Notes under the pieces: generated by a model
The model's input: the letters and a program-made list of their open reading frames with translations, nothing else
Told to the model about the DNA's origin: nothing
Databases searched by the model: none
Part shown: positions 18,806-21,016 of the stretch, piece by piece
How the letters are laid out: each line of letters starts with the position of its first letter
Position numbering within the stretch: position 1 is the stretch's first letter
Translations under genes and position numbers: made by a program
From: Actinomycetota bacterium
GTDB taxonomy: Bacteria > Actinomycetota > Actinomycetes > Nanopelagicales > Nanopelagicaceae
Direction: 5' to 3'
DNA: 64,000 nt
Assembly (NCBI GenBank): GCA_003569265.1
Contig: BGON01000001.1
Location: 301,155-365,154 of the forward strand

Positions 18806-20251
18806 TTATCCGACCCAAGCGTTAATTGGTGAGGATAGGAAATAAACCATAAATAGTCCTGATACGAGGAGTAGCAGAGGATGAAGTTCCTTGCCACGGC
18901 CCTGAACTACGCGAATAACTACGTGAGTAACAAATCCTGCTCCTATACCTACAGAGATGTTGTAGGTAAATGGCATCAAGATAATTGTGAGGAAAGCTGG
19001 GATTCCTATTCCTAAATCATCCCAATCAATCTTCTTGATCTGAGACATCATGAGGAAACCTACGATGATCAGAGCAGGAGTTGCAGCTTCGTAAGGAATT
19101 ATCGCTACAAGGGGTGCTAAGAATGTTGTGAGTAGGAATGCAATTCCAGTCACAACTGAGGCAAGACCAGTACGAGCACCTTCGCCCACACCAGCTGCTG
19201 ATTCGATGTAGCTAGTATTTGATGAAATACCTGCTGCTCCGCCTGCGGCTGCTGCCACAGAGTCAACCAAAAGAATCTTCTGGATGTTATCAACGTTGCC
19301 ATCTTTATCAGCAAGGCCAGCTTCATGACCAATAGCAGTAACTGTTCCAACGGTGTCGAAGAAATCAGATAGCAAGAGGGTGAAGAGAAGGAGAATTGCT
19401 GCAATCAATGAAACATTATCGAGGCTAAAGGCGCCTAGGAGATCAAATTGTCCAGTGAAATCAAACTCTGGTACAGCAACAATCTCTTTTGGAACTGAAG
19501 GAATATTGAGTCCCCAACCGCCGTCCACGATAGTAGGTGGATTTCCGGCTGTGAATCCTGGTGCGATGTTGTACATCTTCTGGAGAACAACTGCCAAGAC
19601 TGTAGCTCCACTGATTCCAATAAGTATCGCTCCCTTAACTTTGCGAACCATAAGTCCGATGATCAAAAGTGTTCCGAAAACGAAAACTACTGTAGGCCAA
19701 CCAACAAGGTTTCCATTCACGCCAAGACCTACTGGAACTGGACCGCTTCCTGTACGGCGAACAAATCCTGCATCAACGAGACCAATGAGGGCGATGAAAA
19801 GGCCGATACCTACTGAGATTGCAATCTTGATCTGTGGTGGAACCGCCTTGAATACTGCCACGCGAAATCCGGTGAGAACTAATACAAGGATGATCAGACC
19901 TTCAAGAACAACAAGACCCATTGCTGCAGCCCATGTCATCTTTGATGCAATACCAACAGCAACGAAAGTGTTGAGACCAAGGCCAGTAGCAAGAGCTAAT
20001 GGGTAGTTAGCAATTGATCCCATAAGAATGGTGAGAACACCGGCAACAAGTGCTGTCGTAGCCGCAACCATCGCAGGTGCAGGTGCAGCACCTCCAAAGA
20101 GGAACTGACCGTTTGCATCTGGTGAGTACGCCAAGATGATTGGGTTGAGAGCCACGATGTAGGCCATCGTGAAGAAAGTTACGAGTCCGCCTCGAACCTC
20201 CTGCGCGATTGATGAGCCACGTTCTGAGATTTTAAAATACGAATCCAGCAT
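18806..20251 (-). CDS. NCS2 family purine permease (AzgA-like)
   Basis: About 481 residues with a dozen or more hydrophobic segments. The start MLDSYFKISERGSSIAQEVRGGLVTFFTMAYIVALNP is typical of the AzgA adenine/guanine/hypoxanthine group of NCS2 permeases. The conserved FFDTVGTVTAIGHEAGL and GISSNTSYIESAAGVGEGARTG loops are present. The ATG at 20251 is chosen over an upstream in-frame ATG because GAAGGG precedes it at a good distance and the family begins here. Exact substrate is not decidable from sequence. Transport fits the nearby salvage gene apt. Its 5' leader is structured (see the separate entry). Confidence 0.9.
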   Translation of the reverse strand: MLDSYFKISERGSSIAQEVRGGLVTFFTMAYIVALNPIILAYSPDANGQFLFGGAAPAPAMVAATTALVAGVLTILMGSIANYPLALATGLGLNTFVAVGIASKMTWAAAMGLVVLEGLIILVLVLTGFRVAVFKAVPPQIKIAISVGIGLFIALIGLVDAGFVRRTGSGPVPVGLGVNGNLVGWPTVVFVFGTLLIIGLMVRKVKGAILIGISGATVLAVVLQKMYNIAPGFTAGNPPTIVDGGWGLNIPSVPKEIVAVPEFDFTGQFDLLGAFSLDNVSLIAAILLLFTLLLSDFFDTVGTVTAIGHEAGLADKDGNVDNIQKILLVDSVAAAAGGAAGISSNTSYIESAAGVGEGARTGLASVVTGIAFLLTTFLAPLVAIIPYEAATPALIIVGFLMMSQIKKIDWDDLGIGIPAFLTIILMPFTYNISVGIGAGFVTHVVIRVVQGRGKELHPLLLLVSGLFMVYFLSSPINAWVG

Positions 20252-20343
20252 AAGTAACACCCTTCTAATTTTGTTGTCGGGGGTGTTTGCGACCCCGTGC
20301 GCAGCAAACGGCCTACACATGCCGGGGGAATAGTTTGAGGGTA
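20252..20343 (-). promoter_or_regulatory. Structured 5' leader of the purine permease: candidate riboswitch
   Basis: Read on the minus strand, a TACCCT -10-like box (20343-20338) precedes about 80 bases rich in pairing. Hairpin 1: CGGC (20324-20321) with GCCG (20312-20309). Hairpin 2: GTTTGC (20309-20304) with GCAAAC (20290-20285); the two hairpins share one base. The loop of hairpin 2 contains GGGG (20296-20293), which can pair with CCCC upstream (20328-20325) as a pseudoknot or with CCCC downstream. AACACCC (20287-20281), overlapping the 3' arm of hairpin 2, is the exact complement of GGGTGTT (20262-20256) at the ribosome binding site. Two mutually exclusive folds that hide or free the site are therefore possible. 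I do not recognise it as a known family. Confidence 0.5.
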
Positions 20344-20347
20344 GTAG

Positions 20348-21016
20348 TTACCTGCTCGTAACTCGGGAAACGACACCTAGAGCAACGGCTATTGATTGAC
20401 CGATTAAGCCTGCGAAGAGCAAAGTTCCTAGGCCAACCGTGCCACCAAGCAGCCAACCCAGGCCGAACACCGTACTTTCGATAGCCAAGCGCACGCGGCC
20501 AACTCGAACTCGCGTTTTGAAGTGAATGCCTGTCATCAAGCCATCACGGGGTCCAGGTCCCAGGCCGCATGTAATGTAAAGAGCAGATGCTGCTCCAACC
20601 ATAGCGATACCTAATAATGTGTAAAGAATCCCAACAAAGTAATTTTCTTGCAGCGGAATGTAGGTAACGCCTATTTCAATAGCTAGTGCGATGATGACAA
20701 TATTGGAAATAGTTCCAAAGCCAGGTTTTTCACGAAGAGGAATCCAACCTAAAAGAACAAGTGCACTGATTCCAAAAGTTGACCAACCCATCGTAATATC
20801 TAAATTCCTTGATATTCCCTGCGCCAACACAGACCAAGGGCCATTACCGATATTGCTTTGAATAACGAAGGCATCACCTATCCCGAAAATGAAAAGTCCT
20901 ACCCACAAAATTAATACACGGGTAAAACCTAGATCCCATTTAGATTGTGCGGTCCAAGGAGTGAGTGGCACTGTGCGGTGCGGACGTAGAAACTCCATGA
21001 ATGCATTCGATGACAT
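20348..21016 (-). CDS. YczE-like integral membrane protein
   Basis: A 222-residue protein with about five or six hydrophobic segments, resembling YczE/YitT-type membrane proteins. Recognisable family segments are IGNGPWSVLAQGISRNLDITMGW and ITCGLGPGPRDGLMTGI. Function is unknown. It lies upstream of the purine permease on the same strand, so a polycistronic message is possible, and is divergent from the DUF554 gene. A TAGACT box six bases before its ATG suggests a leaderless message. Confidence 0.85.
   Translation of the reverse strand: MSSNAFMEFLRPHRTVPLTPWTAQSKWDLGFTRVLILWVGLFIFGIGDAFVIQSNIGNGPWSVLAQGISRNLDITMGWSTFGISALVLLGWIPLREKPGFGTISNIVIIALAIEIGVTYIPLQENYFVGILYTLLGIAMVGAASALYITCGLGPGPRDGLMTGIHFKTRVRVGRVRLAIESTVFGLGWLLGGTVGLGTLLFAGLIGQSIAVALGVVSRVTSR

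Follow-up and report, generated by a model that had tools for sequence, protein, structure and literature searches.

Layout of the permease leader

The window analyzed here is a 64,000-nucleotide stretch of an actinobacterial contig (BGON01000001.1, positions 301,155 to 365,154), and its source genome is a 642-kb assembly that is 42% complete. By its permease, the nearest named complete genome is that of Actinobacteria bacterium IMCC19121 (CP015605; 98% identity), which has been assigned to tribe acI-A7 (PMC5301498). On the minus strand, a gene for a YczE-like membrane protein ends at 20348, and the next gene encodes a nucleobase permease that matches the adenine/guanine permease AZG1 (E = 1.3e-49); by sequence, AZG1 and AZG2, both adenine/guanine permeases, were the only relatives with a solved structure that were found. 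Between the end of the YczE-like gene and the permease ATG lies a leader some 80 nt long. The features of the locus are as follows.

20338 to 20343, minus strand: -10 box TACCCT, with its motif at matching distance in relatives.
20324-20321 (CGGC) with 20312-20309 (GCCG), minus strand: stem S1 of a 5' pseudoknot, from the H-type pseudoknot search.
20319-20313 (TGTGTAG) with 20304-20298 (CTGCGCA), minus strand: stem S2 of the 5' pseudoknot, abutting P1, from the pseudoknot search and a fixed-register test.
20297-20293 (CGGGG) with 20282-20278 (CCCCG), minus strand: aptamer hairpin P1, from covariation over 14 distinct sequences.
20283 to 20292, minus strand: P1 loop TCGCAAACAC, positions 6 to 15, with U6 at 20292 and C15, the predicted ligand-pairing base, at 20283.
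20265 to 20277, minus strand: A-rich tail (L3), ending in AG, with AAAA invariant in 28 genus sequences.
A11 (20287) with U30 (20268) and C9 (20289) with G33 (20265), minus strand: predicted pseudoknot P2, not kept in every leader.
20260 to 20266, minus strand: Shine-Dalgarno region AGAAGGG, its first AG within the predicted P2.
18806 to 20251, minus strand, ATG at 20251: NCS2 AzgA-type nucleobase permease of 481 amino acids (Pfam Xan_ur_permease, PF00860, E = 6.4e-31).

A sequence-only reading of this leader had proposed two hairpins, a GGGG/CCCC pseudoknot, and a masking of the ribosome-binding site. All of the strings and coordinates that it gave are correct, namely, GCAAAC (20290-20285), AACACCC (20287-20281), GGGTGTT (20262-20256), and TACCCT (20343-20338). 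Its -10 box finds support in the relatives: 90 of 119 distinct leaders have a TA[CG]NNT motif that begins 42 to 58 nt 5' of P1, versus 6.5% of random stretches from the same loci. From this box, transcription is predicted to start near 20331 on the minus strand. A Shine-Dalgarno-like sequence, sought with a permissive pattern, lies 3' of P1 in 115 of the 119. The collections that supplied these 119 leaders overlap, and leaders were counted as distinct when they differed in the 42 nt upstream of P1; kin sequences among them are not independent. Leaders with a nonhelical P1 or with less than 60 nt upstream were left out.

Likeness to preQ1-I and conservation

A standard Rfam scan of the whole window returned one tRNA and nothing else. 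When positions 20000 to 20700 (701 bases) were scanned permissively (E up to 10), only PreQ1 (RF00522) and three snoRNA families appeared, and no purine (guanine) riboswitch. The PreQ1 match lies at 20302-20259 and scores 21.3 bits (E = 0.077) against a threshold of 39, so the Rfam search suggested by the sequence-only reading did find a family, below its threshold. Because the gathering score is not reached, we regard the leader as a variant, not a member, of preQ1-I. The RF00522 E-value was rejected as sole proof, since subthreshold matches to Thr_leader, which reach 36.1 bits with E = 0.0051, outrank the PreQ1 ones by this measure. As E-values of this kind prove little alone, we examined the position of RF00522 matches across 60 whole genomes. 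Of 38 matches, each of the top 25 (E up to 0.205) is 5 to 9 nt upstream of the start of a permease orthologue, on the same strand, and one of the 13 weaker matches also lies at a permease; the 39-bit threshold was reached in 0 of 60 genomes (best score, 30.7 bits). The Thr_leader matches, with 36.1 bits as their best score against a threshold of 55, were found in L006, L007, and L012, located where the permease gene ends or farther 3', and they are perhaps terminator-like hairpins.

Direct comparison with the Tte aptamer (sequence from PMC8494917) gave 24 of 33 identical bases without gaps at 20297-20265, whereas the runner-up site in the window gave 19. Paired positions that differ from Tte stay paired (2-19, U-A to G-C; 11-30, G-C to A-U), and both key P2 pairs can therefore form in this leader, compensated relative to Tte. 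The P1 loop has the same length as that of Tte. An AC preceding the 3' strand of P1 is the mark of type II (PMC11625349); this AC (A14, C15) is invariant among 14 distinct sequences. In class I, O6 of G5 in the pocket-floor pair contacts the 7-aminomethyl group of preQ1, and the roles that we give to the loop bases derive in part from the same source (PMC11625349). By sequence comparison, then, the leader is a conserved element that resembles a known class, preQ1-I type II, rather than an unknown one.

The sequence-only reading had also proposed a search for the element, and for covariation, in relatives carrying the same gene. A covariance model built from 28 genus sequences matched, at E values up to 0.1, 253 of 296 genomes from the order, which all belong to a single family; nine of these matches are weak (E = 0.0066 to 0.09), perhaps arising by chance, and 244 are better. 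The matches include 100 of 108 good-quality genomes and 12 of 17 genera. In a named collection, 54 of the best 80 permease loci have the element (permease identity, 67 to 98%). The other 26 comprise 25 loci at 62 to 66% permease identity, without the element and mostly titled as other actinobacterial groups, and L250 (73%), whose sequence begins inside the permease.

Since the P1 loop has a constant length, P1 pairs could be compared without a gapped alignment. The 14 distinct leaders carry P1 as CGGGG/CCCCG, CGGAG/CTCCG, CGAGG/CCTCG, CGGTG/CACCG, CCGGG/CCCGG, CGCTG/CAGCG, ACATG/CATGT, and one wobble form. All 70 of 70 cells are paired, and four of the five pairs have changed on both sides. 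This covariation score was reached by none of 500 shuffles, and slid versions of the helix pair in 47 to 66% of cells. The GGGG/CCCC pairing of the sequence-only reading is real and corresponds to the aptamer hairpin P1. G5-C16, the floor of the pocket, is the only P1 pair that never varies, and U6, C7, G8, A10, and A11 are invariant in the loop together with A14 and C15. Our assignment of exact functions to C15 and A29 (Tte numbering), like the C9-G33 pair, is presumptive and only partly covered by PMC11625349. For this set, 11 of 25 distinct 20-mers were removed on the ground that they fall outside permease leaders; nor are they helical. The decayed-looking L024, L192, and L193 fit no pattern and are outside all covariation counts, an omission that favors the preQ1-I reading. 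L030 was removed from the leader set (another family).

P2 is less constant: 26 of 119 leaders have C rather than U after the A-run opposite A11, and 23 have A or U in place of C9. To judge from these sequences, P2 is the weakest link. Nor is the leader itself unusually stable when folded as a single sequence (z = -1.40; 19 of 200 shuffles fold equally well), so the evidence for structure is comparative.

Several observations concern individual sequences. The permease is kept beside decayed-looking elements with a loop deletion (L192/L204, genome G290), a broken P1 (L193/L208, G238), or a lost core (L024/L045, G009). In genus g31 (L185, L187-L191), an extra hairpin, seen by eye, separates the aptamer tail from the Shine-Dalgarno sequence; most copies have the stem CATCCC/GGGATG and that of L185 has CTCATC/GATGAG, and the expression platform thus differs in this genus. 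Metagenome assemblies titled Bifidobacterium breve (L227, L237, L261, L269, and L273) have permeases 69 to 76% identical to that of the window together with the freshwater-group element, and their titles look wrong. L177 (G174, contig C141) ends in AGATCGGAAGAGCACACG, which we take to be sequencing-adapter sequence. The permease of L005 (G032) lacks the usual ATG, and an in-frame upstream TTG may be its start. Viral spread of the element was considered and set aside: the core pattern occurred in 86 viral-contig stretches, of which 80 were listed and scanned, and one of these had an A-rich tail, which we read as chance.

A second pseudoknot 5' of P1

P1 is joined on its 5' side, with no linker between, to an H-type pseudoknot, which the sequence-only reading had missed along with the resemblance to preQ1-I. 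A mechanical search found such a pseudoknot in 30 of 31 full-length genus leaders (the truncated L025 was left out), with 0 to 6 of 200 shuffles scoring equally. At a score of at least 20, it was found in 113 of 119 distinct leaders, versus 1.7% of 3000 random 42-mers. Its stems vary in sequence, with S1 occurring as CGGC/GCCG, AGGG/CCCT, and ACGTT/AACGT and S2 as TGTGA/TCACA, AGCCG/CGGCT, and TGTCAGA/TCTGACA. In a fixed register chosen blind to pairing, 473 of 720 cells were paired, compared to 390 in 500 shuffles (standard deviation, 9; maximum, 412). Six leaders fell below the score; by eye, L176, L178 (genus g36), and L181 (g40) have no such stems, and L041, L173, and L243 have imperfect or shifted ones. 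The loops of the pseudoknot vary and have no evident conserved bases, which makes a structural role likelier than a second ligand. Most likely, the pseudoknot would stack on P1 and help to hold the aptamer steady close to where the mRNA begins.

Queuosine metabolism, ligand, and alternatives

TGT was found in 260 of 296 family genomes, the same set as that used for the element count, and QueA in none of the 296. QueF did not exceed its cutoff in any of 60 relatives. QueC-family matches occurred in 17 of 37 genus genomes, in frames of 364 to 624 amino acids; the best single stretch scored 21.2 bits (cutoff, 22), and some matches pass, up to 27.1, once neighboring frame stretches are added. We tentatively read these frames as other ATP-pyrophosphatases. 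A tgt gene without queA and without queG/queH indicates queuine salvage (PMC10570037), and Bartonella, which has only tgt and an importer, prefers preQ1 (PMC11570991). Because tgt is kept and queA is missing, the hosts studied here would salvage queuine or preQ1. In 8 of 8 genus loci, the pocket of TGT carries the motif GGALDK; the 5 of 10 other family loci in which the pattern matched have GGALDK or GGAIDK, and the two TGT-bearing relatives from the class have GGALEK. Given the reported signatures GGLAVG for preQ1 and GG[LS][AS]G for queuine (PMC11570991), GGALDK fits neither.

The known importer YhhQ was found in none of the 37 genus genomes and is present in both class relatives that have TGT. 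Its absence had been considered as a complete gap; this is true of the genus and not of the family, in which YhhQ occurs in 30 of 296 genomes from five genera, 29 of which also have the element. The importer-gap argument thus holds for only part of the family. In 21 of the 30 genomes with yhhQ, this gene and tgt share a contig and are arranged tail to tail (genera g29, g31, g36, g37, and g38; loci including L209-L218). The element was not detected at tgt or yhhQ, as no match was better than E = 3.5 in 23 tgt, yhhQ, and permease control sources, including ten yhhQ loci. In genera g26, g28, g33, and g39, tgt is present and neither the element nor YhhQ was found; either another importer is in use there or the element has diverged.

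The element also precedes a second nucleobase-symporter family. In G158 (two loci), G154, G151, G174, and G298, a protein of the NCS1 kind begins 6 to 8 nt past the model match; the one tested, from G151, matches TIGR00800 (E = 1.2e-38, below the curated cutoff), and G298, which is 6% contaminated, carries an NCS2 copy as well. Other divergent loci with a readable downstream gene have an NCS2 permease, except for the model matches L194/L200 and L205, which we read as chance; L194 outscored the true element (L201) of the same genome. The permease of the window is about 60% identical to permeases of actinobacteria lacking TGT, as would fit an ordinary purine permease.

On balance, we think that the leader is probably a translational OFF switch like preQ1-I type II, one that would bind queuine or preQ1 and thereby lower translation of a putative importer of queuosine precursors, the permease. 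This view draws on the match to Tte, the compensation in P1, the constancy of G5-C16, U6, C15, and the A-rich tail, the additional 5' pseudoknot, the position before the permease start, tgt without queA, and the occurrence of the element before the NCS1 family as well. A pocket floor fixed as G5-C16 points to a ligand bearing a 7-aminomethyl group and thus to preQ1 or queuine. The amine of Tte-bound preQ1 is largely exposed to solvent, and its modification lowers affinity with little change in binding mode (PMC8494917); N-alkylated preQ1 ligands have been made for Tte (PMC11897656). Together, these properties make queuine possible as a ligand. We entertain, more tentatively and with the balance against it, the narrower proposal that a tandem-pseudoknot descendant of preQ1-I serves as a queuine riboswitch, sensing the finished base in bacteria unable to make or complete queuine; NCS2 and NCS1 permeases would then import queuine in a group that ranks among the most abundant freshwater bacteria.

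In the proposed mechanism, the aptamer would bind queuine or preQ1, and the bound ligand would dock the A-rich tail, so that the AG of AGAAGGG (20266-20260) would be held in P2. Initiation at 20251 would then be lowered and the gene turned off, the direction of the response being itself a prediction. A parallel is found in Tte, which buries the first two bases of its Shine-Dalgarno sequence and represses only in part (PMC11625349). The NCS2 and NCS1 permeases would import queuine or preQ1, and the lone TGT would insert the imported base into tRNA.

Several findings count against the preQ1-I reading: the RF00522 threshold score is not reached, P2 is weak, and the element is not at tgt or yhhQ in the loci examined; further, the TGT motif is off signature, four genera have tgt without the element or YhhQ, and the permease is close to those of relatives without TGT. 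The main rival, to which we give a lesser but real chance, is that a preQ1-I-derived fold has shifted to guanine or a guanine-faced purine and regulates ordinary NCS2 and NCS1 purine permeases. Both regulated families carry common nucleobases (PMC13328217), AZG1 is the nearest structure, TGT-less relatives have similar permeases, none of the 23 control sources placed the element at tgt or yhhQ, and the pocket ceiling has changed from the G11-C30 of Tte to A11-U30. Against a shift to guanine stand the G5-C16 floor, which is needed for the 7-aminomethyl contact and is the sole P1 pair never to change, and the confinement of the element, within the searched genomes, to a family with a lone tgt. 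It is rather improbable that the RNA is conserved without a metabolite ligand, as a 5' stabilizer or a protein-binding site that sets a fixed translation rate. That role would suit a 5' pseudoknot located at the predicted transcript start and free to vary in sequence, but the loop and tail are near-invariant while the stems vary, as in a ligand pocket, and they coincide with the pocket bases of preQ1-I.

The switch and the operator put forward in the sequence-only reading fare worse. Its expectation of a translational-riboswitch-like leader for a guanine-like base, downstream of a promoter, stands as to kind; its view that no known class applied does not. It had proposed that the two hairpins rearrange to free or mask the ribosome site through AACACCC/GGGTGTT, which we now consider very unlikely. 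This pairing exists in the species of the window, within its minimum-energy fold. Among orthologue leaders, however, the P1 stem covaries, and neither the second hairpin nor the anti-RBS pairing is conserved: a 6-bp helix of GCAAAC with the upstream 30 nt can form in 4 of 119 leaders, and AACACCC/GGGTGTT pairing of at least 6 bp is found in 2 of 119, this leader and L219 (permease, 98% identical). Judged by these sequences, the switch is confined to its own species and very few others. We also rejected a conserved alternative stem of the minimum-energy fold, between a 5' pyrimidine run and the 5' strand of P1; it could form 4 to 5 pairs in 96 of 96 CGGGG leaders and 2 to 3 in 7 of 7 ACATG leaders, and since it is lost where P1 is ACATG, it is not evidently under selection. 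Least probable of all is that GTTTGCG and GCAAACG, whose resemblance to half-sites was noted by eye, form a LacI/PurR-type DNA operator. Few relatives keep the left half-site, the two arms match over 6 nt in 4 of 119 leaders, and what is conserved is not the half-sites as a pair but RNA base pairing with compensatory changes.

If the preQ1-I reading is true, an NCS2-type permease would be a new kind of importer of queuosine precursors, and one of the smallest riboswitch folds would gain a natural variant in which the pocket ceiling is altered and a further pseudoknot is stacked. The element is also a candidate for the first queuine sensor. Assignment of transporters by their riboswitches has been used previously for thiamine and riboflavin transporters; that study used four Rfam models, preQ1 not among them (PMC5301498). 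In the accessible portions of the literature on preQ1 and queuosine riboswitches, on their transporters, and on acI/Nanopelagicales, the element is unreported, and an earlier mention in McCown 2014 or Yuan 2019 is possible.

Among known systems, preQ1-I type II, as in Tte, shares with this leader a five-pair P1, a ten-base loop, U6, AC before the 3' strand, the G5-C16 floor, and an A-rich tail adjoining the Shine-Dalgarno sequence. The leader differs from it in a score under the Rfam threshold, in A11-U30 in place of G11-C30, in the additional 5' H-type pseudoknot, and in a host without queA; it precedes NCS2 and NCS1 permeases, whereas preQ1-I controls queCDEF, queT, or yhhQ. The nested-pseudoknot riboswitches preQ1-II and preQ1-III are likewise small pseudoknots at genes for transport of queuosine precursors, but they have HLout folds with another recognition mode (PMC11625349), and neither matched this leader in Rfam at E values up to 10. 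With the importers QPTR/YhhQ and ECF-QueT, the permeases would share their proposed role, although the protein families are unrelated. With AzgA/PbuG-type NCS2 permeases such as AZG1 and AZG2, the permease of the window shares its sequence family and differs in its riboswitch-like leader and in a putative 7-deazaguanine substrate.
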